Shown here: positions 8,141-51,766 of the stretch, piece by piece
How positions within the stretch are numbered: the stretch's first letter is position 1
Layout of the letters: every line of letters starts with the position of its first letter
NCBI RefSeq assembly: GCF_039555335.1
Contig: NC_092628.1
Location: 80,068,315 to 80,132,314 of the forward strand
Source of the DNA: Amphiura filiformis
Lineage: Eukaryota; Echinodermata; Ophiuroidea; Amphilepidida; Amphiuridae
Length of the DNA stretch: 64,000 nt
Direction: 5' to 3'
Program-made: the position numbers and the translations under genes
Notes under the pieces: model-generated
What the model was told of the DNA's origin: nothing
Seen by the model: the letters and a program-made list of their open reading frames with translations, nothing else
Database searches by the model: none

Positions 8141-8327
8141 AGCTCAATAGCACAATATGAAACTGAAATCAAGTATCATCAATGGAAGGAATGTTTCTAA
8201 TCAAAAGGAATTAAGTAGCACACAATTTGTTTAATTTGTATCTTTCCAATTCAAGATGGAATCCAAAATGGCAGCCAAAATAGGCTATTTCCACTGTCCT
8301 AATAATTAATTATAGGTTAATGAACGC

Positions 8328-8462
8328 GTATTACTTATTGGGAGAGAAATTAGACAAAATAATGCACTTGTGCTGATGTTGATGCGTCTAATGCACTCCT
8401 CACCGCATCAACATCAGCACAAGTGCATTATTTTGTCTAATTTCTCTCCCAATAAGTAATAC
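8328..8462. repeat. Perfect long hairpin, 59-bp arms
   Basis: 8328-8386 is an exact inverted copy of 8404-8462 (GTATTACTTATTGGGAGAGA... and its complement) around a 17-base spacer. A related but less symmetric copy lies at about 28103-28230, sharing the lead-in GGTTAATGAACGCGTATTAC, so this is a mobile hairpin family rather than a one-off. Confidence 0.85.
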
Positions 8463-9531
8463 AAGTTTATTAATCTATTTCATACACGAGAAGAAAAACA
8501 CACGTGATTTTTACTTTTTTATATAACAAATTATCACTAAAAATGCTGGAAAACAGAACCAAATATAAATGCATCAACCCGCCCGAAAAATGAATCAATC
8601 CTACGCGACGCGAACGCACGCGAAACACTGCGCGTAGTACGCGGAGTGCACAATATACACAATCATTGCATGTTTCGTACTTTTCTAACAGCTTTTCTGA
8701 TTGGCTGCTTTGATGTAGGAGTGTATGAAATAAAAATATGCAATAAAATGATTATTTCCGACCCGTGAGCCAAATGAAATAACCAGTGTGATACCATGCA
8801 GTACGACAGCAACTTAGCTCACTTCCGGTAATTTTTACCGGCGTGACCTCTGCTGTTACGTAACGCAATGTTGAAAATCAAGTGGCAAATACGGTTTTTC
8901 AGAAAACATCAAAAAAATGGAATACACGAGTCGTTCCTCCCTTCATTTCCATATTGAGCCCATAGATAAGATATGAAACATGAGTATAAGGTAAAGAATA
9001 ACGTGTAAAAGTTGAATTATTGTGGAAAAAATGAATGCTTTTGGAGCGCGAAGTAGCCTAAAAAATGAGAGAAAATGCATGTCACGATCACTAAAATGGT
9101 TATATCTACAGCTTGGAGGAAACGCCGGTCTAATGCTTTTCTGTTATGATAAACATTAATTAACCAGAGCTTGTATTAAATTTTCAGCGAAAATGAGCGG
9201 TGGAACAACCTAGTCGTAGGTTGAAAAGTTGTGTTCTTTGAGTCCTCGTGTCGTACGCGCACGTTGCAAGTGTCACGATGCTTCACGAAGCCGGCGCTGT
9301 CTATTTATGCATGTTATATTGATCAATATAGCAATTAAAAACGTCTATTGTTATATATTTTATTAATGCAAAATACTCTATTGTGTAACAAAATATTGTA
9401 GTCGTCAAAGAAGGTAGTATCATCTCATTTAACTGAAGTACAAGCAGTTTTAAAAAGACTGTTGTTGAGTGAGATACCGTGACATGTTGAACGAGAAATA
9501 AGATAGCACAATAATACCCGTTGTAAGAACA

Positions 9532-14224: not shown

Positions 14225-15122
14225 TAGTAATAACCAAAAAGTCTAAAACCATTTATTCCAATGAACCATTTGGTCTAATACCCATCTGGTCTATAACCAT
14301 TAAGTCTAATAGCCATTTGGTCTAATATTACCCTTTTGGTATACACACCATTTGGTCTAACAAGCATTTAGTTTACTAATTAATTGGTCTACTAACCGAT
14401 TGGTCTAATAGCATGTGTGAGGCTATGTAGGCGCAATGATGCTACTACACATGATGAGGTCATATGGGATTATAACATCCTATTCCAACTCTATGCAAAT
14501 GACGTAAACAGGCAAACCTATTTCGTTTTAAAGTTTGGAGTGGCAGATAACTCGTACTGGCCCATGTCCCATGCCTGTGGCACCCCGGTGATGCATGATG
14601 AGCCTAGTGTTGGTTATATTATTTATATACCGGTACCTTGTAAAGACCGGAAAAGAAGAACAAATAGCCAGGCAAAATGTCACTTTCAATACATGCAGGC
14701 CGCATGTCTTCTTCTTAATTTTGGGGTACATTATAAACAATAATAAACAATATTAATTCTGAGAATTCTGAGGAATAATGCACAAGTTTTGATGAATGTA
14801 GTATGTTTATACACGTGTTCGTCTCATTTACAAATATTTACAGTCCGTAACCAGTTGTAGACGAAATTTGTTTGATGAATTGGCAAATACACGACATAGT
14901 ATTAGACTAACTGGTTATTAGACCACATGGTTAATAGACCAAGTTATTAGATCAAACGGTAATTAGGCCAAATTGTTAATAATAAAATATTAGACCAAAT
15001 GGTTATTAGTCTATGGTCAGTAGACATACTGGTTATTGGACCAAACAATATTATACAAAAAGGACATCAGACTATATGATTATTAGACGTGGTAATTAGC
15101 CTTTCTGGTACTAGACCTTTTG
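14225..15122. repeat. Degenerate TTAGACCAAATGG repeats in opposite orientations
   Basis: 14225-14415 holds about ten diverged units of CCATTTGGTCTAATA; 14893-15122 holds a similar number of the reverse complement (TATTAGACCAAATGG). The central 14420-14890 is unlike either and contains a 108-residue plus-strand ORF without recognisable motifs. Outlying units occur at 13165-13200, 13904-13950 and 16566-16620, so later insertions have split a once continuous array. Confidence 0.75.
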
Positions 15123-16639: not shown

Positions 16640-18160
16640 GCGTGAGTCTCACGCTCAATGAGATATTGAAATATTGTAAATGTACATCATTATATGTACA
16701 TATTCGCATTCAATTTTAGACAATGCTTGAAGTACCTGTACATATTATTTGATAAATTCGCCTTTGAAAAGAAATGAAAATTCCATTGGTAGTAGATATT
16801 ATATATATGAAGTACCGTATGGCGTGGTGTTTGTTTTGTTATAAATGTTTTTTTTGCCTGATCTAACAGTTAACTAAAGATTAGTCTATTTTATTTAAAA
16901 TATGATTTATTTCCTAAACAGTGTAATGTTGGTTGCAAATTCCACTTTTGAAAATATGTTAAAAGACACAAATTCCTTGGAAAAAACCAAATTCCATTAA
17001 AACAAAACAAACTGTTATGTTATTGGAAACATATTTCTAAAATCAGCAATCAAAATAATTATCATATCAATCTAGGCACCCAAGTTTCATATCATTACTT
17101 TGCAGGGAGATTCATATGCAAATTCCATGAAAATTAACAAATTCCACTATAATAAAAGAGCAAAATCCCCATGAAAATAGTTATCAAACTCAAATCAATA
17201 ATAACCTTGGTTGAGAATTAAAGCCGTATTATGAATGTAAAATAATTAGTATGTTTATACATTGGAAAACGTTAATTGAGTCTACAAAAAAACAAGCAAA
17301 AAACGAAAAATCCGCCGAAATCAACAAACTCCCCTGCAGTATAGGAAAAAAGTACCACACTAATTTAAACATATTTCAGAAGTACAACATGTTGGTTATA
17401 TTATCCAAACGGTTTGATCCAATGTTAGCCTGAATATAGCAGAAAATGTGATTTGAAAATGTTCTTTTTTCGCTACTTTCCAAATTATGAAAAATCCTGT
17501 TTTTGCCCAAATTCCACCATGATTTTACGTAATTATATCAAAAGAATTAAATTTTTCTGAATAAGTCATCTTATAAAGCCTAGTTCAATTCCAATATGTT
17601 CAACTTTCTGCCAGACTCAGGTTATTTCAAAGTACATTTTCATGATGTCAAATGTTGGTCATTTTTAAGCTATATCAATTCTGAGGCAGGTCAAAAGAGG
17701 GCCAATTTTAGGGGGGTCATGGAATTTCCCCCAGGGGGGGGTCACCTGATTTTTTTACTATCATAGTTGTGAAACATCTGACCTAACTAGACTAAGTCCC
17801 AAATATCATTGGATTTGGCTGACCTTCATCTTCATTTTCATCTTCATCTTCATTTTGACATTTTAAAAATGTTGTTGTATTTTTGTTTTCATATGAAACG
17901 CTTTAAAAATGTTTTTATGACCTTTATATAACCCGACATTTAAATATTATTAAAACGTTTTGACCAAAACCAAAGCGTGTATACGTTTATAACGTTTGAA
18001 AAAACAATTTTTTGTTTGCTGAGGTATGCTGATGGGTTGCAAAAAAAGAGAGAAAGTCAGCATCCGAAAATTTGCGTGGCACATCCCTGTACAAATTTTT
18101 ATTGTTTATTGGAAGACCCCCTCCCAGATAATAAGCTATAATAATATAAAATAATGTGTA
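16640..18160. other. No gene recognised; fragment of TIR family B
   Basis: AT-rich. A CATCTTCATTTT microsatellite is at 17822-17860. At about 17885-18020 there is half of a family-B element (ATATAACCCGACATTTAAAT...TTTTTTGTTTGCTGAGG). No exon was identified. Confidence 0.5.
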
Positions 18161-19587
18161 TTAATCTTCCTGAGGAACGCAATTCGATGTCAATGTAACA
18201 AGCACTGTCAACAATGAGAAACCTCCTAATACCATGAAGAGAAAGCCTGATCCTTGGTCAAGAAGATAACCTGCAGGAATGAAAAACAACAAACATTTTT
18301 CAGGTACATCATCTCTATTATATCTACTATACTACACTACGTCGTATATATAAATTACTTGTAATCTGATGCACATTTCAGCACGTAACAAATGCTTACA
18401 AGAGAGAGTGGGAGAGTAATAAAGTCAGATTGAAGAAGAGAGTGTGCTCTTACTTCAGCTACTCACCTGAAATAAAACCAGCGACGAAATCTCCAAGAGC
18501 GAAGAACATCCAAGCAAAGCTGAATCCTTCTACCGCGCGATCATCTCCCAATAATTCTGTTGCAGCTCCAAAGGTCACATTTGGCAATAAACCAGTAGCG
18601 AATCCGTTCACAAAGGCAAGAAGTGCCAATGCCCAAAATGTGTTTACAAGGACGTCAACACCAAAGGCTACTGCATTAACCGAAGCTAATATAACCATTA
18701 ATTGTATTGCCGTTATGTTACAATTCTTAATAATTGGTCCCATCAAAGGCCGGCCTAATAGAGTGCCCAGTCCACCGCAAAATGAAAGAAAAGAGGCAGT
18801 TTGAGGTGGTAAACCTTTTCCAATGGCATTAGGTACGAGAAATATTGTCCATCCTGTAAACACTACGCCAGTAAGCATATGTGCGGCAATAATTGGTATG
18901 AATTTAGGATTCTTTATGAGATAGAATGAAATGTATCTTGAAATTTTAGCAGGTACATTCCGTATATTGGGGCACCTGGACTGCTGAGCGGCAGATTCGT
19001 CTGTTACTGGGATCTCAAAATACTCTTGTGCGGTCATATCCCTTCTCTGGTTTACTAATAGGCCACAAACAACAAGGTGGGAATTAAGGGTACTAAGTAG
19101 CATAAGAGCTCCTCTCCAGCCATAAATCTGAATCAGGAATTCACATATGGGTGGTAGAACCATCATACCTAGTGCGCCACCTGCACTTGTCAAACCCCAG
19201 ATGTGGTTGGTATTACTGGGGAAGTAATTTTTGGTTGTAGCCAAAGAAGCTATGAAGACCATGTTAAAGCTGCACCCTGTAAACGGAAAATGTGAAGTTG
19301 ATCATAATATGATAATCTACTTTGTTTAAATATGACCGTTTGTAGGTCCAATATAGGCATACGGTCTATCTAAAAACGTAATAATTTTGAGGTCGGGTTA
19401 CCTCCTATGATGTTTGTCGGTACGGTTTTTGGCAGTTGTGTATATAAACTGTAATAAGGGACGTGTCCCGGTGACATGTTCGTGTCATGATCATTAGGCA
19501 TTAGGCCACCAAAAATTGTTTGATTGGCGCAACCCGACCGACATTAAAATCAGGCCTAATAATAATAATAATAATACTAGTAATAAT

Positions 19588-19637
<50 letters not shown>

Positions 19638-21171
19638 AAATAATTAATTTATTTATTTATTTATTTATTGAATTTTTTTAATAAAAAAAAAAAAAAAAAG
19701 TTCTAGGGCCTTTATCAAACGCAATTTACAAGGCTTAAAATTAAAAAATTAAAAAAAAAATCCCGACCATACCTACCCTATTTTTTATGTTACGCCAATC
19801 AAACAATATTCTTTTTGTGGCCTTAGTGTACACCACTAAGAAAAAGACAAGGAGCAGCTGTGAAATTACTGATAGCAACCATATCTGTCTTTACCATCCT
19901 TACGGAGCCACATTTGATAAGATCTCAGACTAAACACCAGTGGCGTAGCGCTAGTCATCCTATGGAGTGGGGCATCAACCATGGGGGGAACCAATTTTCC
20001 TATGGATTATCTAACTTTTCAAATCGTTCGGAAGAGCACGTGCCCCCCCCCCCCCTTGCCCCTATGACGCTACGTCACTGCTCACTAATATAAAGTTTTA
20101 CTTCCATGGTATCAAGAAGGCTTCAAGACTTCACAATAACGACCCGGGGAATAACGGTTCTTTGGATATGGACGGTACTAATAATTCTTGCTGGTAATAA
20201 TTATGCATGAAATTACTCAAAACAAACAAAAATGATTGTAATACGAACCAGTGAATATGATCAAAACACCAAACCATGTAATAGTATTCACCAGTGCTGC
20301 AAACGACAGGCTACATGCGCATAAGATACCACCAAAAACTAAGACATGTCTCTCTCCAAACGTACAAGTAGCATAATCCGATAGCGGAGCTTTATCAAGT
20401 GAAAAATAAATAAATACGTCACACGCTCATACGTCATACGTTTGATTGGTCATAGCTATAAATACAATCCCGATTCAACTACCGTAAACGTTTGCCTAAT
20501 GGCGTTATAGGGTCCGTCCCTTGACATAACTGGAATTTTAGACACAAACTGAAAATGCCCTCCCATAAAAATCCCACCAGTATATAAGGGCACGTACCCT
20601 TAATTCTTTTTGGGATTTTTAGAGGAGGGAGCTCTCTATATTTGTACATGAAATTACCCCCAAGGCAAAGACGCCAAGGTGCACTATTAGGCGAACGTTT
20701 ATTCTTTTGTTTCATAAAGTGACTACCTAAAACGGAACATTTAATAGCTCCAATACCATACAATTTTGTACTTAAAGCCATATTTTAAAATATACTGAGG
20801 ACGCCCTCAAAGCTTGTTCAAAATTTTTCAAGATTTTTACATGATTGTAATTTTTGGAACATTCCACGAGTTTCAGTGCAATAATTGCAGATTATTACTT
20901 CAAAAGTTTGATCTTAAATGTTTATTATCAACCACGATGTGGTGTAAAAAATTGAACTATTTATATGGATAACAATTAACATCATCTTACAAATAACATT
21001 GGTAAATGCTCTGCATGTAGCTATCCATATTCCCAATGCAGTGCTCGATGTTTGAAGGCCTTCTCGAAGCGGTTGAAAAAACACGCCGAAACTTTTAAGA
21101 GTTCCTAATTCCCAAAAGTTAACCAGAAATATAGCTAAAATAACGCCGATCGACTTTAACATGATGATCAT
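18161..21171 (-). CDS. SLC16/monocarboxylate-transporter-like protein, copy 1
   Basis: Four coding exons (minus): 20991-21171, 20249-20389, 18467-19276 and 18161-18270 with stop TAA. GT-AG junctions keep frame throughout and give about 413 residues, a major-facilitator fold with about 12 hydrophobic segments. SLC16-like landmarks are FLVNFWELGTLKSFGVFF (TM1-2), PLSDYATCTFGERHVLVFGG, WGLTSAGGALGMMVLPPICE, IYGWRGALMLL and SFCGGLGTLLGRPLMGP (TM8). The arginine near residue 283 fits the conserved MCT TM8 Arg, but the acidic residue four positions earlier is Thr. The TM1 signature (D/E)G(G/S)WGW is absent and the TM5 YFxKRR motif reads YFPSNTN. ATG follows directly on an acceptor-like TTTTTAG, so a 5' noncoding exon is likely. 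It could be an orphan transporter of unknown substrate. The plus-strand ORF 18430-18804 is a shadow. Confidence 0.85.
19504..19822. mobile_element. PIF/Harbinger-like MITE in transporter intron 2
   Basis: 319 bp, flanked by TTA (19501-19503, 19823-19825), with inverted ends GGCCACCAAAAATTGTTTGA and its counterpart ending GTGGCC. GGC termini with a TTA target fit PIF/Harbinger. The paralogous intron of copy 2 shows an unfilled site (CATTTAGTGCACA near 45162). A (TAA)n microsatellite lies inside at 19557-19636. Confidence 0.75.
20485..20701. mobile_element. Short TIR element in transporter intron 1
   Basis: TAAACGTTTGCCTAAT at the left and ATTAGGCGAACGTTTA at the right are inverted, 217 bp apart. 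The equivalent place in copy 2 (about 48075) lacks it. Confidence 0.55.
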
Positions 21172-22818
21172 CTAAAAACAAATGTACAATGTTAAAATGC
21201 TTAGATATGCTTAAGAGAGCCATATCCATGAAAGTTATCCGCAAATATATGATAAACCTCAAATAATTCATAAACCGAATCATCCGAGAATCTTTTTCCC
21301 ATGATGAAATATCTTAAGTCGCACAAGAAACATTCTGGGGTGGCTTGTTATAATTACACAGAATTTAAGGGTACATGCTATATGAATAAAGACCAATCGA
21401 ACATATTCTTGTTTATGCCATAATATTGCAATCTTTCAACCCTTTCATAACTTCAGCTGTGTAACTTACGAAAATTCCCGCTAAAAAGTGGTTCTTTTAA
21501 TTTTTGAAAATACAATAAAAATTGGTCTGGATTTTTCGTACTGATTATACTATAATGATCACAAGACTATAATGTTCTGATCACACTATAGACTGGGTTG
21601 ACATGAGACGTCAATTGCCAGTCAATTTGTCTCTATTGTTCCTTGCCCGGTCATATGCCCATGGATCAGGGACCGTGCTTTTAAAAAACCCGCCAGATCA
21701 AACTAGGGCCATTGACCTGTGTAGTGGTCATACGTTGCTCGCTCAACCATAACAGTATGACCGTCCATAATAGCGACTCATTAATGCCTTGCATCAGGTC
21801 ATGGACTCTATTAAATAATTCTAACCCTTTCTTTGAGGTCAATAGATGAAAGAGAGGCCTTGAAAAACTAAGGGAACAACCCAAAAGTTCGATGAAGCCC
21901 TATAAACGAAAGTCCTTTCGTTCGAAGGCTAACCCCTTTTAGCCCTTTTAGCTCCAATACCATACAATTTTGTACTTAAAGCCATATTTTAAAATATACT
22001 GAGGACGCCCTCAAAGCTTGTTCAAAATTTTTCAAGATTTTTACATGATTGTAATTTTTGGAACATTCCACGAGTTTCAGTGCAATAATTGCAGATTATT
22101 ACTTCAAAAGTTTGATCTTAAATGTTTATTATCAACCACGATGTGGTGTAAAAAATTGAACTATTTATATGGATAACAATTAACATCATCTTACAAATAA
22201 CATTGGTAAATGCTCTGCATGTAGCTATCCATATTCCCAATGCAGTGCTCGATGTTTGAAGGCCTTCTCGAAGCGGTTGAAAAAACACGCCGAAACTTTT
22301 AAGAGTTCCTAATTCCCAAAAGTTAACCAGAAATATAGCTAAAATAACGCCGATCGACTTTAACATGATGATCATCTAAAAACAAATGTACAATGTTAAA
22401 ATGCTTAGATATGCTAAAGAGAGCCATATCCATGAAAGTTATCCGCAAATGATAAACCTCAAATAATTCATAAACCGAATCAACCGAGAATCTTTTTCCC
22501 ATGATGAAATATCTTAAGTCGCACAAGAAACATTCTGGGGTGGCTTGTTATAATTACACAGAATTTAAGGGTACGTGCTATATGAATAAAGACCAATCGA
22601 ACATATTCTTGTTTATGCCATAATAAACCATAACAGTATGACCGTCCATAATAGCGACTCATTAATGCGTTGCATCAGGTCATGGACTCTATTCAATAAT
22701 TCTAATCCTTTCTTTGAGGTCAATAGATGAAAGAGAGGCCTTGAAAAACTAAGGGAACAACCCAAAAGTTCGAGGAAGCCCTATAAACGAAAGTCCTTTC
22801 GTTCGAAGGCTAACCCCT
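20747..22818. repeat. Tandem duplication containing transporter exon 1
   Basis: Block A (20747-21425) recurs at 21951-22625 with about six differences. Block B (21745-21937) recurs at 22626-22818. The second unit lacks 21426-21744, so A2 abuts B2 directly. Block B ends in the first ~65 bp of the TIR family-A terminus. Confidence 0.9.
22195..22375 (-). pseudogene. Duplicate first coding exon of the SLC16-like gene
   Basis: This 181-bp exon encodes the same 60 residues plus one base as 20991-21171, with the same acceptor-like TTTTTAG and donor GTAAGA. It lies 1204 bp upstream of exon 1 of copy 1, and no second set of exons 2-4 stands behind it. It could act as an alternative first coding exon giving the same protein, or be a skipped relic. 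Confidence 0.75.
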
Positions 22819-23291
22819 TCCCCCTCCCCTCTAACGTAAGTGTCAAATATCGAAAATTCCAACCCGTATTCATTGGGCACAGGGCCGTCGCTATGATCGA
22901 TGGGGTTGTGGAGGGGTGCGACATTGCTAGGATATTGATCACGTTTAAGAAACAATAATTCTATTTTATTTTGAAATATTTTTCTTCATAAAAATTAGGA
23001 CTTGCTGGATTTTCAAATAAAAAAGTGCGGTACATAGATGCTTTAAAAATGAACTTACAAGTTGCAGGTTATCTGAAATCATTTTGAAGCAACCACTGTA
23101 AAATGTCAATATCGAAGTTCAGAAAATACTAAAATCTTACAATTATATATTAAATCCTTAAAAAATTATCAACTTTGACCGATGTTTTAACTACTTCTTT
23201 ACAAACGTAACTACTTCTTTACAAACTTTTTGACACCCCTAACGAAAAAACTTTCGTTTATAGAGCTTCATCGAACTTTTAGGTTGTTTCC
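22753..23291. mobile_element. TIR family A, uninterrupted copy
   Basis: Starts GGGAACAACCCAAAAGTTCG...ATAAACGAAAGTCCTTTCG and ends with the inverted counterpart (CTTTCGTTTATAGAGCTTCA...AGGTTGTTTCC), with TIRs of about 55 bp. It has no coding capacity. It is joined head-to-tail to the next copy with a single base between. Confidence 0.8.
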
Positions 23292-23600
23292 TGGGAACAA
23301 CCCAAAAGTTCGATGAAACCCTATAAACGAAAGTCCTTTCGTTAGAAGGCTAGCCCCTCCCCCCTCCCCTCTAACGTAAGTGACAAATATCGAAAATTCC
23401 AACCCGTATATTCATATAGGATACAGGGCCGTCGCTATATGGTGCATGGGGTTGTGGAGGGGTGCGACAATGCTAGGATATTGATCATGCTTATGGAAGA
23501 AACGAATATTGCATTCTATTTTAAAATATTTTTCATTATCTTTTTTGGCACGGAAAAAATAGAACTTGCTGGATTTTCAAATAAAAAAGAATGTGGTATG

Positions 23601-24844
23601 AAACACAAAACGTTTTCGACATCATTCGCCAAAGGTTAGAAAAAGTGGTCAGAAAATGTTTAAATGTCGGGTTATATAAAGGGTATATAAAGGGTAAAAA
23701 AAATTTCATATTAAAGATTTGAAAACATTTTGATAACCTCCTGCAAATATTCTAACATAATGTCTTTAAAAAATATTTTACAATAACTTTTTGAAAACAG
23801 TTTAGAAATAGTTTTGTAGTATGTTTTCATACATAACGTTTTTCATGACGGTAAAAATGACCTTTACATAACCAGGGGATGAGACTGCTCTGGTTAAATG
23901 TCGGGACCTAGGTCACAAGTTGAGAAGAAATGATATGCCAAGTTTGAAGTTCCCTAATCGGCCCATGAGTGACCAAATCGTTCCTGGTAAGCCGTAGCCT
24001 ATACTTCTATTACAGTATATGCAGTCTACATGTTCTTTATAGTATTGCAGATTCATATAGAATTGCAGATTACATATTCTTTGTTGACAAGGGGCAGTCT
24101 TCAGTGAACAGCTCTCTTTTTCCGAGCCAACAAACCTTCAAATTTAGCATATCGACGAAGTCTGCTTGTTTCTGTAGACAAGGGGCAGTCTTCAGTGAAC
24201 GGCTCTTTTCAGAGTCACCAAAACCTTTTAAATTAGCAGATAGGCGAGATCTGCTTAATCTCTGTTGACAAGGGGCAGTCTTCAGTGAGCGGCTCTTTTC
24301 AGAGCCACCAAACCTTTAAAATCAGCAGATAGGCGTGGTCTGCTTGTTTCTGTAGACAAGGGGTAGTCTTAAGTGAACGGCTCTTTTCAGAGCCACCAAA
24401 ACCTTTTAAATTAGCAGATAGGCGAGATCTGCTTAATCTCTGTTGACAAGGGGTAGTCTTCAGTGAACGGCTCTTTTCAGAGCCACCAAAACCTTTTAAA
24501 TTAGCAGATAGGCGAGATCTGCTTGTTCTCTGATGACAAGGGGCAGTCTAAAGTGAACGGCTCTTTTCTGAGCCATCAGTAGGCAAGGGACGGTCTACAT
24601 GTCTCATTCTTCTGAGGTACTTTGTCCTGAAGAAGTCAGAGCTACTCCTGACGAAAGCTTGACTAAACTTGTCCGACGGCGAACCCGCTAAAAAAATTGT
24701 TATGAATTCCCGTCGAAAAAGCCTATCCCACAATTTACCTGATATAACCCGACATTTTAATGTTATTAAAACGTTTCTACCAAAACCAAAACCACAAAAT
24801 ATAACATGTTTAAAACGTTTTAAAAACGTTTTGTGTTTGCTCGG
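23601..24844. mobile_element. TIR family B, long form carrying a stem-loop array
   Basis: The left end AAACACAAAACGTTTTCGAC and right end AACGTTTTGTGTTTGCTCGG match the family-B ends at 46343-46730. Subterminal AAATGTCGGGTTATATAAAG and ATATAACCCGACATTTTAAT are present. Unlike the ~390-bp copy at 46343, the centre holds the 90-bp array and about 200 bp of other unique sequence on each side. Confidence 0.7.
24083..24590 (+). repeat. Tandem array of histone-type 3' stem-loops, ~6 units of 90 bp
   Basis: Spacing between cores is 88-90 bp. The core GGCTCTTTTCAGAGCCACCA is exact in units 3, 4 and 5 (24291, 24379, 24469). Unit 2 (24201) has one change leaving a G-U pair; unit 6 (24559) has a loop-closing change; unit 1 (24111) is degenerate. 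The exact units match the histone mRNA 3' stem-loop (6-bp stem, 4-base loop, 3' ACCA); two of the three also have AAC upstream. A second hairpin, AGCAGAT...ATCTGCT, follows each. No histone ORF and no clear purine-rich U7 element (CAAGAAAGA type) lies beside them. Confidence 0.85.
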
Positions 24845-25240
24845 ACAGTTGCTTTAAAAATGAACTTACATGACGTTGCAGGTTGCGAGTACTGCACTCC
24901 ATATTGATTTGAAATCATTTTACAGAAACCACTGTAAAATCCGTAAATATCGTACTTAGGAAAATACTAAAATTTGACAATTATATTTTAAATCCTTAAA
25001 AAAAGATAACCTTTGACCGATGTTTTAACTACTTTTTTACAAACGTAATCGGACTTTCTGACCCCCTCCCCCCCTAACGAAAGGACTTTCGTTTATAGGG
25101 CTTCATCGAACTTTTGGGTTGTTCCCTTAGAAAGTGCAATAAGTAGCATTAAACTCACGTTAATTAATTTATAAGCTCTTGTGTGCCTTGTATGTATTTA
25201 CTACAGGAATGCGCTCGTATTGTTACTGAGGCTGTCAGTT

Positions 25241-26520
25241 CTATACGCCGTAGAAGTGACGTAGTTAATCGGATTAACTACCATAGCAATAGATGAATAC
25301 AATTTTGGCTATATCGCCCCGCACTACAACGTTCATGCGGTACCGATGCATTGAACCATAGATTACACCTGTAAGATTTAGTCTATTTGAAAAGAGCGGT
25401 ATTGTATTCAATCTTACACCACATTTCGCCATAATACATTCTAGAAACGCTTGCTGTTAGAATAAGAAAAATTTTAATGCTAATTTATTGCACATTCTAG
25501 GGAAGCGTGGTTACCTTTTAAAATAACCGAGTGAGAGGGTTTTCAAGAAAATATTTTTCCTGTCAAAACTGAAGCATCCTCTGTATAAAAGAAAATATGA
25601 ATATTAACTGCACATCATATATAACGATTCGTGATACCCAATTATGGCGCATTTGATGTCGTTTAAGAGGCAGAGAATTTTATTTCAATTTTATATACGC
25701 CAAAAGATTTTTTTAATTGAGCAAAAATAAGGATAGAAAAAACGTTGAAAATCCTATGTGAATATTACATTAGACCCAACCAAAGATTACTGTTTCGTTT
25801 TTATGGTAATCTAATCTTTTATTTCCTGAAAAAACATTTTGGGTCTAATGTCGAATATTCACATACTTGATCAAAACATCGAACGTGTATACAAGAAAAT
25901 GATAGGTTTTCCTCTATAGTATTTTACTGACCATGGAAATGTACTGAGACACAATCACGTGTCAAAATCGATATAATGTATTGTCCATATAGACGTCCAG
26001 TTATCATGTTTTTGTTGGTTGTTTTTTTTGTATAAAACACGTAGTTAACAACAATTGAGCGCTAATAATACACATAAATGTTTTTAGGCAAATAAAATTC
26101 CAAAATATGGTACGTTTTCTGCCTTTGCTTGTCACGTGGTAGGCCTATGTTGAAGTTGCGATTATATCTACAAATAAGTTTCAAAAGAATTCCAACAAGA
26201 CAAGTGGCCGAGTGGTCTAAGGCGATGGGTTCAAAGTGTGTCCAAAGCAGTCCGTCGCCGTGAGTTCGAACCCCGCCTCCACCAAACTTTAATGAAGTAA
26301 AATTAAAATTAAAATTTTACTTTTTAATAAATTTCATATTGGGGAAATGTGACTGGCAGAATTTATTTATGGCGTGGAGTGGTGTGATTCAATCTATTAT
26401 ATGATTGAAGACAGGTGATGAGTGCAACCTGCTGCAGTGCAGCGCGGTATATTCAAAAATTGTATTCATCTATTGCTATGGTAGTTAATCCGATTATGAC
26501 GTCACTTCTACGGCGTATAG
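25241..26520. mobile_element. TIR element with ~90-bp arms
   Basis: CTATACGCCGTAGAAGTGAC...ATCGGATTAACTACCATAGC and its inverted copy end at 26520. Similarity may extend about 12 bp further out. Inside are a TATGTGAATATTACATTAGA hairpin pair (25755-25870) and a tRNA-like sequence (26199-26284). No transposase. Confidence 0.65.
26199..26284 (+). other. tRNA-Leu/Ser-like sequence
   Basis: GTGGCCGAGTGGTCTAAGGC (A box) and GAGTTCGAACC (B box) with a long variable region and terminal CACCA resemble a class II tRNA. The loop would give CAA, but the acceptor and anticodon stems do not pair, so it looks like a pseudogene or tRNA-derived insertion. Confidence 0.5.
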
Positions 26521-34263: not shown

Positions 34264-37235
34264 ACTAGAGTCAACAGACGCTGAATACAAGCCGCAATTT
34301 GACCCCTATAACTTGACCCCTGGGTTACGGATGGGGTCAACTGCTCTTGCACTGTGCTTAGAATGTCATAAGAAATATTCCTGGTGAATTTCAGCTTAAT
34401 CGGAACTTATACATGGATTTTGATTTTTTGAAAATTTTTGATTGACCTTTTGACCCCTTTATTGACCTTTGACCTCAATGTAAAAAAAACCTTATGTACA
34501 CCGACAAAATGCATTGTTTCAATTTTAATTAAAAAATTCTAACATGTTCAGTTCTTGAGATAAAAATTCTTGAAGTTATTCAGCTAAAAACAGGAAGTGA
34601 CCCCTTAATGACCTTTGACCCCCAAAATAAAAAATACCATGCATACATCAGGGAACACTAATTCATGTATGTTGGTTATATTATTCTGGTCTGTTTACAT
34701 TTTGAGATAAAAATTTTTTGAACATTTTTGGTTTTTGACCGAAGTAACCCTTAATGACCTTTGACCCCAAACCTGTAGGCATCCTAAAGACCCTGGCTAG
34801 TAGCAATGCATGTGTGCTAATGGCGACTCTCTGCTATATATTTTGTAAAGACAGTGATTTTTTGAATATTTTTAGCTTTCAGACCGGAAATGACCACCTT
34901 AATGACCTTTGACCTCAATTCTTTTTAGGAAGTTTTAAGCACTGCCACATGTTGATTCATATGCATGAGTCACATGATCATTGCATGAAATTTGTGGAAG
35001 GAGTAGCATTTTTTTTTTTTTTTCTTTTTTGACTATTTTAGCTAGGTCAAAGGTCACAGCGAGGTCAAAGTCAAATGGAAGGTTTGGCCTAGCCCAATGG
35101 TCATTTGGGTCAACTGTGGTTGAAATCTGTCAATCCCTTGCGGAGCTACATGCAGTTGATTGCGGTTGCCAGAAGAAAGAAGAAATAAGCTGTGGTCTAA
35201 CCCACGAACACAGCCGTGTTGTTACCCCTAATGACCTTTGACCCCAAAAATATATGAAACGGCCATAGACATTGGCTAATGTCAATGCATGGGTGCATGT
35301 GGCACCACTTTGCTATGTTACTTGTGGCAGAAGGGGCATTTTGAAGGTTTTTCGTCTCAGACCGGAAGTGACCCCTTAATGACATTTGACCCTAAATAAA
35401 AAAATACCACATATGAATTGGGTACCCACAATTCATGTGTGAACATACTCGTTACTGTCCAATGTTTTTCTTAGCAAATAAAAAAATTGACGGTTTTTCG
35501 TTTTATACCGGAAGTGACCCTTAATGACATTTGACCCCAAATAAAAAATACCACATATGAATTGGGTACCCACAATTCATGTGTGAACATACCGTTACTG
35601 TCCTATGTTTTTCTTAGCAAATAAAAAAAATTGAAGGTTTTTCGTTTTATACCGGAAGTGACCCCTTAATGACCTTTGATCCCAAATCTGTGAGGACCCC
35701 CATAGACACTGGGTAATAACAATGCATGTGTGCAAGTGGTGTCACTGTCCTACGTAAGTTGTGGGAGAAGAAGCATTTTAAACGTATTTCGTATTATACC
35801 GGAAGTGGCCCCTTAATGACCTTTGACCCTAAATATAAAAATAGCACATATACACAGGATAACTACAATTTATGTGTGAACATACCGTTACTGTCCTATG
35901 TTTGTCTTAGCAAATAAAAAAAATTGAAAGTTTTTCGTTTTATACCGGAAGTGACCCCTTAATGACCTTTGACCCAAAATCTGTGAGGACCCTATAGACA
36001 CTGGATAATAACAATGCATGTGTGCAAGTGGTGTCACTGTCCTACGTAATCTGTGAGAGAAGAAGCATTTTTAGTTGAAATCACGTTTTTGACCCCTATG
36101 ACCTCTGCGTGACCTTTGACCCCACGAGTTTCATATGACATGTAGGGGCATGGTCAATGATGGTTGTGACCAAGTAAAGTCAAAATCGGTGTAAGCATGT
36201 AAGTGCTAGAGCAAATGAAGTGGTCGGCAGAAAGAAGAAAGAAAGAAGAAAGAAAGAAGAAAGAAAGAAGAAAGAACCTGTAAGAAAAAAGACACAGCCG
36301 TGACTAACGTCACGGCTGTGTAACTAGAGTCAACAGACGCTGAATACAAGCCGCAATTTGACCCCTATAACTTGACACCTGGGTTACGGATGGGGTCAAC
36401 TGCTCTTGCACTGTGCTTAGGATGTCATAAGAAATATTCCTGGTGAATTTCAGCTTAATCGGAACTTATACATGGATTTAGATTTTTTGAAAATTTTTGA
36501 TTGACCTTTTGACCCCTTTAATGACCTTTGAAAAAAAAAAAAAAAAAACCTTATGTACACCGACAAAATGCATTGTTTCAATTTTAATTAAAAAATTCTA
36601 ACATGTTCAGTTCTTGAGATAAAAATTCTTGAAGTTCTTCAGCTAAAAACAGGAAGTGACCCCTTAATGACCTTTGACCCCCAAAATAAAAATACCATGC
36701 ATACATCAGGTAACACTGATTCATGTATGTTGGTTATATTATTCTGGTCTGTTTACATTTTGAGATAAAATTTTTTGAACATTTTTGGTTTTTGACCGGA
36801 AGTAACCCCTTAAGGACCTTTGACCCCAAACCTGTAGGCATCCTAAAGACCCTGGCTAGTAGCAATGCATGTGTGCTAATGGCGACTCTCTGCTATATAT
36901 TTTGTAAAGACAGTGATTTTTTGAATATTTTTAGCTTTCAGACCGGAAATGACCCCCCTTAATGACCTTTGACCTCAATTCTTTTTAGGAAGTTTTAAGC
37001 ACTGCCACATGTTGATTCATATGCATGAGTCACATGATCATTGCATGAAATTTGTGGAAGGAGTAGCATTTTTTGTGAAATCACATTTTTGACCATTATA
37101 GCTAGGTCAAAGGTCACAGCGAGGTCAAAGTCAAATGGAAGGTTTGGCCTAGCCCAGTGGTCATTTGGGTCAATTTTGGTTGAAATCTGTCAATCCTTTG
37201 CGAAGCTAGATGCAGTTGATTGGTTGCCAGAAGAA
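34264..37235. repeat. Duplicated blocks rich in TGACCTTTGACC and CCGGAAGTGACC
   Basis: 34264-35195 recurs at 36323-37235 (offset 2059, small indels). Between them, 35210-36090 holds a ~145-bp unit repeated about five to six times (ACCGGAAGTGACCCCTTAAT then GACCTTTGACCC). It is bounded by CACAGCCGTG palindromes (35212, 36295-36322) and GAAAGAA microsatellites (36233-36280). Confidence 0.85.
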
Positions 37236-37319: not shown

Positions 37320-38260
37320 CAATACTGTGCAACGTTAAATTTGACCCGACCTTTGTCTTCGGTTGACCTTTTCGGTTTCATATTCGGAGCAATGTTACAT
37401 TTGACCTGACCTTTGACCTTGGATGACCTTTTCGGTTTTACACTCCCCAAGTGTTAGGGATCATTTGCCGCAAGTTGCAGCCTGATCGGAGCAACTTTAA
37501 ATTTGATCTGACCTTTGAACTTGGATGACCTTTCCAGTTTCATACTTCTCAAGTGCCAGGGATTATTTTCCCCGAGTTGCAGCCCAATCAGAGCAACTTT
37601 AAATTTGACCAGACCTTTGACCTCGGATGACCTTTGCGGTGTAATACTTCCAAGGTGTCAGGGATCATTTCCCCAAGTTACAGTCTCATCGGAGCACCTT
37701 CACATTTGACCTGACCTTTGACCTCACATGACCTTTGTGGTTTTATACTCTCCAAGTGTCAGGGATCATTTTCCCCGACTTACAGCCTAATTGGAGCAAC
37801 TTCAAATTTGACCTGACCTTTGACCTCCCATGACCTTTGTGGTTTTATACTCCCCAAGTGTCAGGGATCATTCCCCCGACTTACAGCCCAATTGGAGCAA
37901 CTTTAAATTTGACCTGACCTTTGACCTCACATGACCTTTGTGGTTTTATACTCCCCAAGTGTCAGGGATCATTTTCTCCAAGTTACAGCCTGATCAGAGC
38001 AACTTCAAATTTGACCTGACCTTTGACCTCACATGACCATACAGGTAGTATAGTCGCGAAGTGTCAGGGATCATTTTCCCTGACTTACAGCCTAATTGGA
38101 TCAACTAAAAATTTGACCTGACCTTTGACCTCACTTGACCTTTGTGGTTTTATACTCCCCAAGTGTCAGGGATCATTTTCCCTGAGTTACAGCCCAATCG
38201 GAGCAACTTGTAATTTGACCTGACCTTTAACCTCACATGACCTTTGCAGTTTAATGCGGT
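37320..38260. repeat. ~103-bp minisatellite, about nine units
   Basis: Each unit reads TTTTATACTCCCCAAGTGTC...CAGGGATCATTTTCCC...GAGCAACTT...AATTTGACCTGACCTTTGAC...CACATGACCTTTG. Unit length stays near 99-108 bp and drift is mainly substitution. The 38261-39460 stretch after it holds poly-C runs, a CACA run and no gene. Confidence 0.9.
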
Positions 38261-42617: not shown

Positions 42618-45600
42618 TTAATCTTGAGGAATGTAATACGATATCATTGTAACAAGTACTGTCAAGAATGAGAAACCTCCTAATACTATGAAGAGAAAGG
42701 CTGATCCTTGGTCAAGAAGATAACCTGTAGAAATGAAAAAGAACAAACGTTTCTCAGGGGCATCGTCTCTTTTACATCTACTATACTTTTATGGATCACA
42801 AAGGCCAAATACCTTTTACCCAAATTCATTTCAGAATGCACAACAAAACACACTGAATTGTATAGTACCATGACCACGGATGACTGGGCAAAGTTCATTC
42901 ACATAAACATAAGTGCATACAATATTTTACAAATGTTTACTTATCCGGTAGTCTTCTTTTTCCTTTTGATTATAAAGTTCTGTTGCACTCAATGTTCCCG
43001 GACGAATGACGTCAAACGTGTCCAGCGAAGGCCACTGTCCAGCGAAGTCCCAACTGTTAACTTGAACTTATATAATCCAATGCGTACAAATCCTGGTACA
43101 GATGGCAATCTCACCATCCACCCGCTTTCTTTAGGAAACAGGCTTTATTCCACGTGCTGCTCCACTTACATTGACAGATTTGTCTTTTCCCCTTTTCGTA
43201 AACTAGACTTCAGCAAGTCTAAGGAACATATAACTAATTCCCTTTTTGGCAAGTCTTGCGGTTAGCACAGCTGTGTGAGTGAACATGACACCACTGCCCG
43301 CCCACTGCATACACACGTGCATGGTGAAATTTGAATTTTGACAGATATATTTACAATAAAAACACCTTTAAAAGGTTGGTCGATTTCACATTTTATGTTA
43401 TCTACAGAAGGTGTGAATTATCCTTCATGCATACATCACTTTAGATCTGAAATCGACCAAGCAATAATGACACACGGGCAATTCTAAAACAACATCTTTT
43501 GCACAGAGTTCAATGGGATTTGAAAAGTAAAGTGGCAGTTGAAACTCTAGTGATAACACTTTTACAGTGCATGATGGGGCTTCCTTAAATCATCCTCTGA
43601 TCTCATTCGTTCTGATTGGAAAAGTAGCACTTTCGCTACGTAAAACAATGTAGCTATGCAATCATATAGCTCATACTTGGATCACTGGCATATATCTGCC
43701 ACGGAAATCTATTGCTTCTGTCTCTGATACCGAACTAGTAAAACTCAAAAGTCCCAGTTATATTAAAAGATCATTCTGTCACATTCACCATATTTTAGCC
43801 ACATGTTTTTTTCATACGCAATGATCATTCTGTAAAATATGAGGATTTCCCAATCCACTGACTGACTTTGTTAATATTGTGATAACATGATTAAATCATG
43901 GAGGGAATTCCCATCTTTCATAAAATAGCTTTTGCAAACAAAGTTAAATGATTAAAAGCTATTAAATTAAAAAGGGCACAACGTTACAATGTTAAATCCC
44001 TAATATGTAAATTATCTGACGCTCATTTCAGCACGAAATATCAATGTTTAATCATTTTAATTGAGAGAGAGAGAGACTGGGTGAGCCAGTCAAAAAAGAG
44101 GATGTGCTCTTACTTCAAGCTATTTCAGCTACTCACCTGAAATAAAACCAGCAACGAAATCTCCAAGAGCGAAGAACATCCAAGCAAAGCTGAATCCTTC
44201 AACCACACGATCTTCTCCCAATACCTCTGTTGCAGCTGCAAATGTCAAAATTGGCAATATTCCAGTAGCGAATCCATTTACAAAGGCAATAAGTGCCAAT
44301 GCCCAGAAGCTGTTTACAAGGACGTCAAAACCAAAGGCTATTGCATTAGCCGAAGCTAATATAACCATTAATTGTATTGCCGTTATGTTACAATTCTTGA
44401 TTATTGGTCCCATCAAAGGCCGGCCAAATAAAGCGCCCAGTCCACCGCAAAATGATAGGAATGAGGCAGTTTGAGGTGGTAAACCTTTTCCAATGGCATG
44501 AGGTACGAGAAATATTGTCCATCCTGTAAACACTACGCCAGTAAGCATATGTGCAGCAATAATCGGAATGAATTTAGGATTTTTTATGAGATAGAATGAA
44601 ATGTATCTTGAAATATTAGCAGATACATTCCGTATATTGGGGCACCTGGACTGCTGAGCGGCAGATTCGTCTGTTACTGGGATCGCAGAATATGGTTGTG
44701 CGGCTATATCCCTTCTCTGGTTTACTAATAGGCCACAAACAACAAGATGGGAATTAAGGGCGCTTAGTAGCATAAGAGCTCCTCTCCAGCCATAAATCTG
44801 AATCAGGAATTCACATATGGGTGGTAGAACCATCATACCTAGTGCGCCACCTGCACTTGTCAAACCCCAGATGTGGTTGGTATTACTGGGGAAGTAATTT
44901 TTGGTTGTAGCCAAAGAAGCTATGAAGACCATGTTAAAGCTGCACCCTGTAAACGGAAATATGAAGTTGATCATAATATGATAATCTACTTTGTTTAAAT
45001 ATGACCGTTCGTAGGTCCAATATAGGCATACGGTCTATCTAAAAACGTAATAATTTTGAGGACAGGTTACCTCCAATCTGTTTGTTGGTACGGTTTACGG
45101 GAAGTATTCGGCAATTGTGTATATAAACTACAATAAGGGACATGTCATGATCTGTGCTGCACATTTAGTGCACATGTTGACCAAAAAAAAGAAAGACAAG
45201 GAAATTACTGATAGCCAACATATTCTGTCTTTATCATGTTTACGGAGCCACATACAGGGTGTCCCAGAAAAAATTACCGAGCGAATAAAATTGAACGTAA
45301 GTCGAGAAATAGACATCAGAATCAAAAAATTTTAAAATGTATCGCATAGCTTATTTTGTTGTGCATCACATACGAAAACTTTATTTGATTCGGTTGCCTG
45401 GTTGCGAAGAAATGAACGATTACATAATGCGTGCATCAATTCAGTTCATTCCAAGTTTGATCAACAGGCGCTTTTTTCATACTCGCTCACCGCTTCCTAA
45501 AGTTTGTGTATCTTATTAAATTTAGTCCACATTATCTATTTTATAATCGGACGGTGTTATGTGATATGTCATTCATGCCTTCACTGAAGATGAATAACAG

Positions 45601-48600
45601 TTTGTCGAGAAAACTTTGATTTCTGCAATTGGAAGCTTTCCAACTTCAATTCTTTATGTTGTGCAAATATATTATATTTTAACTTTCTAATGAACATTTG
45701 AGCCAAGAATAACAATGATCAAGTGCTTACAGCTTTACGTGTGATTTTTGATGCCATGCAACATTAATGTTGAAGTTTTAAAAGATTTAAACTTTGCATT
45801 ATAATTTCTTGGAAATATTCGAAAAACAGTAATGTGTGTGTGAAAATTTTTAAGCCAGCTGGAATTCTTTATGCAATAATTCTTTATGCAACATTTATAT
45901 CTACATTAACGAAAATGTATATTTACAAATACCGAGCATCATCTTACATGCAAGCTTTCATTTTCAATATCGTGCAGGTTTTAAAATTTGAACAAAACCT
46001 AATTAAATGTTTTGCAAGAAACAGATTGTTTAAAAAGAACGAAAAGGATTTCACAGAAATATGAAGCCCATGGACAGTTAACCATTAGTATGCATTGTGT
46101 TGAATGATCTTTCTTTCAAACTTGGAATGAAGTGAATTGACGCATGCGTTATGTAATCGCTCATTTCTTCGCGATCAGTCGACCGATTCCAGTAAAATTA
46201 GCATATAAGATGCAGAATAAAATGGGCTACACGCTGATGTTTAGATTTTTTTTTTTTTTTGTCTATTTCTCGACTTATATCCAAATTTATTCGCCCGGTA
46301 ATTTTTTCTGGGACACCCTGTATTATCAGTGGCGAAGCGCTACCCAGCAAACACAAAAATATTTTTAAAACGTTTTAAACATGTTATATTTTGGGGTTTG
46401 GTTTAGATAAAAACGTTTAATAACATTAAAATGTTGGGTTATATAAAGGTCATGGAAACGTTTTAAAACGTTTTAAATGAAAACATAATGCAACAATATT
46501 TTTAAATTGTTTTAAAAATGTTATTGTAAAATATTTTTTGATATTTTGTTAACACTTAAGTAACATTATATTAGCATATTTGCAATAGGTTATCAACTGA
46601 TATTTTTGAATGTTATAAAAATGTTTTATACCCTTTATACGTCCTTAATATAACCCGACATTTAAACGTTTTCTGCCAACCTTTTCTAACCTTTTACGAA
46701 TGATGTCGAAAACGTTTTGTGTTTGCTGGGTAGTCATCCTATGGGGGAAGGGGCATCAACCGTGGGGAACCAATTTTCCTATGAATTATCTAAATTTTCA
46801 AATCGATAGGAAGAGCACGTGCCCCCCCTTGCCCCTATGACGCTACGCCACTGCTCACTAATATTAGGGTGGCCACAATGCTAGCTATTGTGTGTACCCT
46901 GCTTACATACACAAATGTATGGTGGAAATTGTAACAGATTCTGCAGCAGTTGGAAAACTTTTGGGCATTTTGAATTCCATATAATTTGTCTCCTAGTAAC
47001 TTCTGTGCAAACCCGACTACCTAATTAGAAATTAGAACATTTTCTGCTCGTAATGAAGGTGAATATAGCATTTTTGTACGGTCACGCATAAAAAAGTTAC
47101 GCACAAAATAATTTTTTGTCATCAAATAAAACTATTTTCCCAAAGATGTACAATTATGCTATATTCAGTTTTACAATCTAGACCCTCAGAGCAAAATCCT
47201 GTGCAAAAATCAGACCAATTTGGTTGTGTAGTTTGGGAAATACAGGCCTTTGAAGGTCATAATTGGCACATACTAGCGCCCTCAATGGTGAAAATCACAC
47301 ATATTTACCTTAAAAGTCCTGGCAAAAGAGTTATTTTTGTGATTTCAGCCATTTTAAAAATGTTGTAAAGAAGCAAATATAGCAATTATGACCCTGGATT
47401 TTTTTTAATATTTGCATAAATGAACATTAAATAAACAAAAACAATACATCTCATGCCTTCTTTGGCTTTATTCCCACAATTATCGCTTCATGAATATGCA
47501 AATTTATGACAAAATCAGGATTTTCCTAAAAATGGGGTAAAATGGCCAATTTTGTGAATCTTTATAAGGCTGTATCTTCGCAACGGATTGTCCGATTGAG
47601 TTGATTCAAAAGTTTTTGAAATCATTTTGCAGAAGGAACAATCCTGATAGGAAAAGTAATTCCAGGGGTGGGTTTGAAATTTTCATGTGACCACCCTACT
47701 AATATAACGTTTTTCTTCCATGGTATCAAGACTTCGCAATAACGACCCGCGGAATAACGATTCATTGGATATGGATACGTACTAATCATTCTTTCTGGTA
47801 ATATGCATGAATTTACAAAAGAATTTACTAAAAACCAAACAAATATGATTATAATACGAACCTGTGAATATGATCAAAACACCAAACCATGTAATAGTAT
47901 TCACCAGCGCTGCAAACGACAAGCTACATGCGCATAAGATACCACCAAAAACTAAGACATGTCTCTCTCCAAATGTGCAAGTAGCGTAATCCGATAGCGG
48001 AGCTTTATCAAGTGAAAAATAAATAAACAAAATACGTCACAAAAAGAAAGTAACCACTCATTTGAGTGGTCACAGATTGAACTATGAATAATCTTTTGTT
48101 TCATAAAGTGACCACGTAAAACAGACCTCAAACAGAACGCTACTTTATTTTATTGCCACATTTTAGCTCCAATGCCATACAATTTTGTGCTTAGGCGACA
48201 AAAAAAGAAAACCCTGTTCTACGAGCCCGACCGACCCAGATTTTGAACAAATTGGGAAGAAAAAAAATTTCCTGTACAAATGAATACCGACCCAAATTTC
48301 GGAAATTTCAGGAACAATTTTTGTTTTTTTGTATTTCCTCAAATTGCAAATTATTTACAGATTTTGGAAATTTTTTGGGTCATTTTCCAAAAAAAATTAA
48401 AAATGGCCGACCGACAGACCCTACTTGAAAGGTCCGTCCGCCTGTAGAACATGGTTTATTTTTTCGTCGCCTTAAAGCCATATTTTAAAATTTACTGAGG
48501 TGAACGCCCTTATTGTAATGTACTTTATTAAACTAACATACCCTGCAAAACTCCAGGCTTTAGGTGCTGTGGTTGTGACAAAATCCGAGGTTTTGAATAG

Positions 48601-49989: not shown

Positions 49990-51766
49990 AAGGGATCTGG
50001 AATGAGCGTTTTGAGCGTTTAGACAGTATTTTTTGTGGGACATGAAAGCACATCAGGAATGTCGAATTGCATTCTGAATGCGCAGAATGTCTTTCTGATA
50101 TCAAATAATTTTCATTTTTTGAAATTCACGATATAATACAAATTTTATGACAAATTATTAAAATTTGATATTTTTCAAATTTTTGATATATAACAGTCCT
50201 CGAAGTAAATTTTATAAATCTAATGATATATTCTTAAAGTGTATGTAGCTGGGATGAAAAAATTTGACCTTTCATATTGAAGATATGGATTTTTTTCCCA
50301 AAAAGACCTAATTTTGTTGGTGTTTTGGGAAAAAAAATCCATATCTTCAATACGAAAGGTCAAAATTTTCAATTGATCGTCGGCTTTTCATCCCACCTAC
50401 ATACACTTTAAGAACATCCCAGCAAACACAAAAACGTTTCTAAAACGTTTTAAATAAGTTATATTTTGGGTTTTGGTTTAGGTAAAAACGTTTTAATAAC
50501 ATTAAAATGTCGGGTTTTACAAAGGTCATGAAATCGTTTTAAAACGTTTTGTATGAAAACACACTACAACAATATTTTTAAAATGTTTTCGAAATGTCAT
50601 TGTAAACTATTTTTGCAAACATTGTTGGCCAAATATTTTATCATCACTTAAATAACATTATGTTAAAATATTTGCACCCAGCAAACACAGAAATGTTCTT
50701 AAAATGTTTTTTACAAAACGTTTTAATAACATTTAAATGTCGGGTTATATAAAGGTCGTGAAAACATTTTAAAACGTTATTGTAAATATTTTGGGTAAAC
50801 ATTTTTGCAAAATATTTTTCAACCCCAAAATAACATTCTGTTTAGAATGATTTGTACCAAGTTTTCAAAATGTTTTTGGAATGTTATTAAAACGTTTTAT
50901 ACCCTTTATATAACCCGACATTTAAATGTTTTCTGTAAAACATTTGTGTTTGCTGTGCAGTAAATTACCAACAAATGTTATTTAATGTTATGAAAACGTT
51001 TTATACCATTAATGTACCCTTTATATAACCCGACATTTAAACGTTTTCTGACAACCTTTTATAACCTTTTGCGAATGATGTCGAAAACGTTTTGTGTTTG
51101 CTGGGAATGGGATATTATCAGATTTATAAAGTTTGCTTCAAGTACTGTTAAATATTCATAACCTCATTGATATACGCAGAAAGTGCGATCCAATCACAGA
51201 TAATAACTTTTAAATACGCGGACGCAAATGCAGGTCATTGAAAAAGTATAATGACCGCGTCTCGTGACGTAGCTAAAAGTACGCTCTACAATGACCGCGT
51301 TACGTGACGTGTTACGCGTTCGAACAATTTACGCGGACGCTGGCCGCCGTATTTGGACATTCAGTGCATGATTGCGTGCTAGTGTGGTCGCTAGCGGTAT
51401 TTCCTTAATGGGCTATTCGACTTTTTTTACAGGGAAAACGACAGATAAAGTTAAAATTGAGTTCTGTTTTCAAATTAAAAGAAGAAAATGTGACGTTAAT
51501 TGAATCTTAAAATTGAATATCCCTCGGTTCAATGTTTAGATATTTCACAATACCCTCAAAACAACTGATGCGCAGTCATTAACCTCTAATCAAAAATATC
51601 AATTTTTAATCATTGGCCATAAAATGTGTATTACATTGCGAATTTCAAAAAATCAAAATTATTTGATATCAGAAGGACATTCTTCGTATTCAGAATGCAA
51701 TTCGATATGTTTGATGTGCTCTAATATCCCACAATAAATACTGTCCAAAGGTTCATACCCCACCCC
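49990..51766. mobile_element. TTAA-flanked TIR family C, interrupted copy
   Basis: TTAA at 49986-49989 and 51767-51770, with GGG...CCC-type ends and family-C blocks at both sides. Family-B elements fill 50418-51105. A further ~400 bp (51165-51590), containing ATGACCGCGT(C/T)(T/A)CGTGACG repeated twice, also interrupts it. Confidence 0.7.
50418..51105. mobile_element. TIR family B, with a second family-B copy inside
   Basis: Outer ends CCCAGCAAACACAAAAACGT and AACGTTTTGTGTTTGCTGGG. Within it 50677-50957 is another copy (CCCAGCAAACACAGAAATGT...TTTGTGTTTGCTGTG), whose right end has diverged. Confidence 0.75.

Follow-up and report, generated by a model that had tools for sequence, protein, structure and literature searches.

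A tandem array within nested insertions

Within the 64-kb window (the whole stretch of DNA analysed here), Tandem Repeats Finder identified an array on the + strand (24078-24575) with a period of 90 bases and 5.6 copies, which bears out the initial annotation of a 90-bp unit repeated about six times and which, as a series of head-to-tail units of about 10-100 bases, is a minisatellite. The 20-base motif GGCTCTTTTCAGAGCCACCA occurs exactly, in sense orientation and with its ACCA tail, in the three units for which this had been claimed, namely unit 3 (24291-24310), unit 4 (24379-24398) and unit 5 (24469-24488). The copy in unit 2 (24201-24220) has a single mismatch that keeps a G-U pair, the copy in unit 6 (24559-24578) has two mismatches and a broken closing pair, and unit 1 (24086-24176) carries a degenerate hairpin with a 3-base insertion and three substitutions within the 20-mer. 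The second hairpin reported for most units, AGCAGAT/ATCTGCT, was likewise found on the + strand in unit 2 (24235-24255), unit 3 (24324-24344; with one U-G pair, as claimed), unit 4 (24413-24433) and unit 5 (24503-24523); in unit 1 the same U-G wobble as in unit 3, together with one broken pair, leaves 6 of 7 pairs, and unit 6 is truncated and lacks this hairpin. Unit 3 is 88 bases long, and a unit-like remnant without the hairpin lies at 24582. No other array of this kind occurs within the window.

A protein-coding array (90 = 3 x 30) was rejected since the 88-base unit 3 shifts the frame; minus-strand frames of 82 and 81 amino acids are present at the array, and a Pfam scan, which covered the first of these, gave no match. 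A hammerhead ribozyme was considered for CTGAAGA...GACGAAA at 24627-24656, which resembles a decayed core, and was rejected since no Rfam hammerhead was found at E ≤ 10; CTGANGA occurs on the + strand at 24530, 24627 and 24648 and on the minus strand in four units, at 24104, 24195, 24285 and 24463. Searches of viral_contigs returned 0 exact matches for the 20-mer, the unit, the second hairpin and the terminal repeats of elements A and B (described below), and since the collections searched were prokaryotic or viral, absence from them says little about animals. Two further, larger minisatellites of TGACCTTTGACC-type sequence lie at 35341-36024 (146 bases) and 37384-38252 (102 bases), with 4.7 and 8.5 copies by Tandem Repeats Finder, so that such arrays are not exceptional in this window; repeats rich in TGACCTTTGACC also suggest that the DNA may well be from an echinoderm. 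In addition, 16-base repeat arrays in inverted relative orientation, foldback-like, are located at 14241-14410 and 14900-15045.

The array lies in a nest of insertions. The outermost level consists of two family-A elements on the + strand, A1 (22749-23292), which has terminal inverted repeats of about 53 bases and is the uninterrupted sibling, and A2 (23293-25130), which is interrupted by element B; the two align at 82-83%, with inverted arms. Since the right arm of A2 pairs with the left arm of A1 at 98%, A1 and A2 may have moved together as a single composite. Element B (+ strand, about 23595-24844; its left terminus is degenerate and its ends are approximate) bears the terminal repeat (CCCAGC)AAACACAAAACGTTTT and was aligned to opposite-strand copies at 46343-46724 and 50417-51106. 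Within B, the array makes up over half of an 868-base insert, C (+ strand, 23874-24741), which has one copy of an imperfect 8-base direct repeat on either side, the left one, ACATAACC, at 23866-23873 and the right one, ATATAACC, at 24742-24749. Insert C is absent from the B copies or fragments at 46343-46724, 50417-51106 and about 17858-18026, all of which cross the insertion point uninterrupted, as does another B copy that sits within the one at 50417-51106. The array had been placed in a family-B terminal inverted repeat element inserted in a family-A element; this nesting stands, but the array belongs to the third-level insert and is not part of family B itself, since the siblings lack 23874-24741. 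The siblings could instead have lost C through deletion between the 8-base repeats, which is less simple because every compared sibling lacks C at the same place. As for the class of C, the best match between its 150-base ends was equalled by 194 of 300 shuffles, so that no terminal inverted repeat stands above chance; hAT and other known classes were considered, but C lacks inverted ends and its direct repeat does not define a class. C may have arrived as a small transposon, by retroposition, or as filler DNA of the kind described for Pack-TIRs (PMC8277862).

Exon-like frames on the minus strand, at 20917-21171 and 22121-22375, for which Pfam gave no match, have the nest on their upstream side, and an MFS_1 gene frame (18462-19301) is nearby. 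A transcript of the MFS_1 gene, if it extended this far, would read the minus strand, where GAAA takes the place of UUUC in the loop. Several other rearrangements were observed in the window. The MFS_1 gene stretch is present in two minus-strand copies (18364-19467 and 44014-45146) whose DNA is 90% identical, and a tandem duplication of 98-99% identity (20745-21425/21949-22625 and 21745-21938/22626-22819) includes an exon-like frame beside the MFS_1 frame as well as the left end of a family-A element. Inverted repeats at 25240-25328/26433-26521 (89%) bound an element of about 1.3 kb, inside which we read a tRNA-like stretch near 26200-26285 where ARAGORN makes no call. A head-to-tail duplication of about 1.55 kb (30541-32084/32084-33629; 98.8% identity) contains frames with a weak PF25206 (DUF7836) match below the curated cut-off, and a long hairpin at 8312-8478, 88% self-complementary, has miRNA-model scores below the cut-offs and is perhaps a MITE.

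Likeness of the hairpin to histone 3' stem-loops

The best Rfam family at the array was RF00032, the histone 3' UTR stem-loop, with scores of 31.4 bits for unit 3, 30.3 bits for units 4 and 5, 22.1 bits for unit 2 and 13.4 bits for unit 6; with the whole window searched against all families, the E values of the top four units ranged between 4.5e-5 and 0.13. This covariance scan named the expected family at up to 31.4 bits but left every unit under the gathering cut-off of 34 bits; at gathering thresholds, nothing was reported in the entire 64 kb. Units 3, 4 and 5 show the features of RF00032, that is, a six-pair stem, a four-base UUUC loop and the ACCA tail in the sense orientation, and the AAC that precedes the stem presumably matches sea urchin histone genes. 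In 100 dinucleotide shuffles of the window, the 20-mer with up to three mismatches was found 0.00 times on average (maximum 0), and the looser histone-type pattern GGYYYTNTNNARRRCC matched, on both strands of the window, the three exact units only. The original identification of a histone stem-loop therefore holds on the RF00032 match and on the rarity of the exact 20-mer in unrelated DNA, and at window scale the units do better than shuffled sequence.

The main rival to a histone origin is coincidence, in which a chance hairpin in one unit resembled the histone stem-loop and was then multiplied with the unit, a reading that we regard as a real, if doubtful, possibility. Prokaryote sequence served as control DNA, comprising a 257-Gb contig collection and 793 genomes (398 + 395); we know of no prokaryote with SLBP. 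The exact 20-mer occurred once in the 257 Gb, and its independent-base expectation at this base composition is 0.0005 per Gb, which argues against coincidence, though hairpins need not be independent-base events, given that the window itself holds 62 perfect hairpins with six pairs and a 4-base loop. The degenerate 18-mer GGYYCTTTTCAGRRCCAC was present in 68 prokaryote stretches of the 257 Gb, no more than once in each; pairing is perfect in 29 of them, and one contains the exact 20-mer. Each of five genomes drawn from this set had RF00032 matches at E ≤ 1 (best 23.3 bits), and the prokaryote site with the exact 20-mer scored only 21.2 bits (model positions 6-24), which indicates that the window units fit the flanks of RF00032 better too.

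Higher scores were also obtained from prokaryotes. RF00032 matches at E ≤ 0.001 were found in at least 25 of 398 and at least 38 of 395 genomes, and matches of 29 bits or more, taken by score, in at least 4 of the 793 (29.6 bits; 34.3, 29.7 and 29.2 bits), at least one of them above the 34-bit cut-off; the counts are lower bounds, given the strict filters and the 15 candidates scored in each genome. An RF00032 score alone thus proves no histone origin, since genomes with no known SLBP reach at least 29 bits. Across an entire animal genome, about 30 bits is not a rare score, but an exact 20-mer is rare. The repeats, being tandem copies, amount to a single event and not to three independent matches. 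On the minus strand the hairpin becomes GGCTCT-GAAA-AGAGCC, with a GNRA tetraloop of the ordinary kind. Coincidence is further favoured by the absence of histone sequence beyond the hairpin.

With respect to this absence, no histone downstream element (CAAGAAAGA-like, with at most two mismatches) was found on the + strand of 24078-24720, compared to a window average of 2.8 per kb, where CAAGAAAGA is what we take to be the sea urchin form and the host's own form may differ. Neither AATAAA nor ATTAAA occurs on either strand of 23861-24760. In agreement with the earlier remark that no histone gene lies beside the array, human H2A, H2B, H3 and H4, used as queries, had no homologue in the 64-kb window translated in six frames (phmmer E ≤ 10, tblastn E ≤ 1). 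Histone 3' ends are described as having the hairpin, the HDE and a mature end a few bases past the hairpin (PMC1924863), and the stem-loop and a purine-rich element are given as their hallmarks (PMC5011920). As far as sequence comparison reaches, the units share with such ends just the hairpin and its tail, and the resemblance to a histone gene is confined to about 20 bases. The array differs from the histone stem-loops of RF00032 in its scores below 34 bits, in having no downstream element and no histone gene in the window, and in its tandem copies. Capture of a histone 3' UTR, as suggested initially, is our leading candidate for the origin, although the likeness covers no more than hairpin and tail, with neither a downstream element near the array nor a coding remnant in the window.

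Conservation, pairing and folding of the units

Conservation was measured as the mean pairwise difference of the 20-base motif and of the rest of the unit, and the motif was ranked among equal-length circular windows, its own included; unit 6 was counted only over its first 48 columns, and the remnant at 24582 lies outside all counts. Across units 1-5, the motif differed by 0.122 and the rest by 0.157, with 36 of 93 windows as conserved as the motif, while across units 2-5 the values were 0.025 and 0.121 (5 of 90 windows). Over the first 48 columns, the motif was less conserved than its surroundings in units 1-6 (0.125 vs 0.083; 45 of 48 windows) and more so in units 2-6 (0.060 vs 0.096; 7 of 45 windows). 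Conservation of the hairpin is therefore mixed, and the verdict on whether it is conserved relative to the rest of the unit shifts with the inclusion or omission of the end units. In units 2-5, few stretches vary as little as the hairpin, so that some constraint is conceivable there.

Among the 13 pairs, no compensatory (two-sided) change was found, and there were two types of one-sided wobble; 94.4% of 71 cells were paired, which is not above shuffles. A tree of units 1-5 with the motif removed yielded the groups (u1,u3) and (u2,u4,u5). Because both lineages contain perfect hairpins, the founding unit probably carried one, and units 1, 2 and 6 have probably drifted from it; the idea that the closing A of the stem is derived, as the end units lack it, was dropped for the same reason. 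Folding z scores for units 1-5 were 0.23, -0.10, -0.09, -1.01 and -1.90 for the + strand; the minus strand gave 0.39, -1.61, -2.06, -2.25 and -2.63, so that in units 2-5 its folds depart further from shuffles than those of the + strand (-1.61 to -2.63 vs -0.09 to -1.90), in keeping with coincidence.

These results also bear on whether a mobile element multiplied the histone stem-loop as working SLBP sites, so that its transcripts would titrate SLBP as a sink, or would gain a histone-like 3' end and become S-phase-linked and poly(A)-independent, including in their translation, which we consider very unlikely. Such sites would be consistent with three exact sense hairpins with ACCA, with a fourth preserved through a G-U pair, with the low hairpin divergence among units 2-5 and with the lack of AATAAA or ATTAAA noted above. 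However, the U7 downstream element is absent from the + strand of 24078-24720, neither end unit (1 or 6) keeps the hairpin, its conservation in units 1-6, taken over the first 48 columns, falls below that of its surroundings (45/48), no compensatory changes were found, and the array is the only one in the window. Likewise, the roles as decoy or as processing or termination signal that were raised in the initial annotation gained no positive support, given the lack of compensatory changes, the degenerate end units and the mixed conservation.

Origin of the array and what it would mean

Overall, we favor, with a probability of about one half, the interpretation that the array is a non-functional, decaying selfish minisatellite with a probably histone-derived hairpin, residing inside C, in B, in A. 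The founding unit would have held a histone-type 3' stem-loop with its ACCA tail, most likely copied from the 3' end of a histone mRNA, and the likeness does not extend beyond roughly the 3' end of a mature histone message, as would fit an origin from mRNA or as short filler DNA. The unit would then have been multiplied locally via unequal crossing-over or slippage, and the array would now be decaying, chiefly at its ends, without benefit to the host. The lack of an intact hairpin in end units 1 and 6 was counted for decay; counted against this interpretation were the lack of histone-like sequence outside the hairpin, the RF00032 scores below the cut-off, the equally high scores in prokaryotes and the low divergence of the hairpin in units 2-5, which would allow for some constraint. 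If a + strand transcript were made, its intact units could bind SLBP, and U7-dependent cleavage would be poor without a downstream element.

An improbable alternative is that the array acts at the level of DNA within the element, either as transposase sites or through cruciform-forming hairpins that promote expansion. In the foldback-like Galileo, tandem repeats inside the element are reported to bring additional transposase sites (PMC4079207), and each unit here, as a rule, offers two hairpins. However, the array is central in C and does not take the form of repeats at both ends, and the ends of C match each other in inverted orientation no better than expected by chance (194/300 shuffles).

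Returning to the selfish, decaying minisatellite, published elements provide partial precedents. A Culex Helentron carries captured H4 and H15 fragments, and in some copies of its derivative HINE-Cq-32A.1, simple or tandem repeats take up around half the length (PMC4067079). This is histone-derived sequence in mobile DNA, as the array would be, but it consists of coding fragments and not of a 3' hairpin (PMC4067079). Helentrons and HINEs insert at TT without target duplication, whereas C has its 8-base direct repeat and no T-T junction. Among foldback and MITE-like elements, Tetris has, as here, a tandem array inside a non-autonomous element (PMC4079207), as does a P. gingivalis MITE minisatellite (PMC4596501), with no histone hairpin reported in the parts of either source consulted. 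Animal transposons with terminal inverted repeats capture sequence, in single-copy cases mostly via gap filling (PMC8277862); as in these Pack-TIRs, C represents foreign sequence between the ends of such an element, B, and differs from them in having no known parental locus. Among the literature matches listed (titles and abstract openings), no element with histone-hairpin arrays appeared, and the 20-mer as an unbroken DNA or RNA string occurred in no paper text searched, a body of text in which subscription papers are mostly outside scope. The initial statement that no element like this has been described was thus too broad, as a Helentron with histone fragments (PMC4067079) and repeat-bearing transposons (PMC4079207) have been published, although neither source, in the parts consulted, mentions arrays of the hairpin.

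If the hairpin arose by coincidence, the case still shows how little an RF00032 match near the cut-off proves, tandem copies included, since multiplication within an array is a single event and prokaryotes, too, reach scores of this kind. If it is histone-derived, a regulatory RNA motif of one gene class would have been moved and multiplied by mobile DNA, and the array would offer a natural test of SLBP action outside histone genes.
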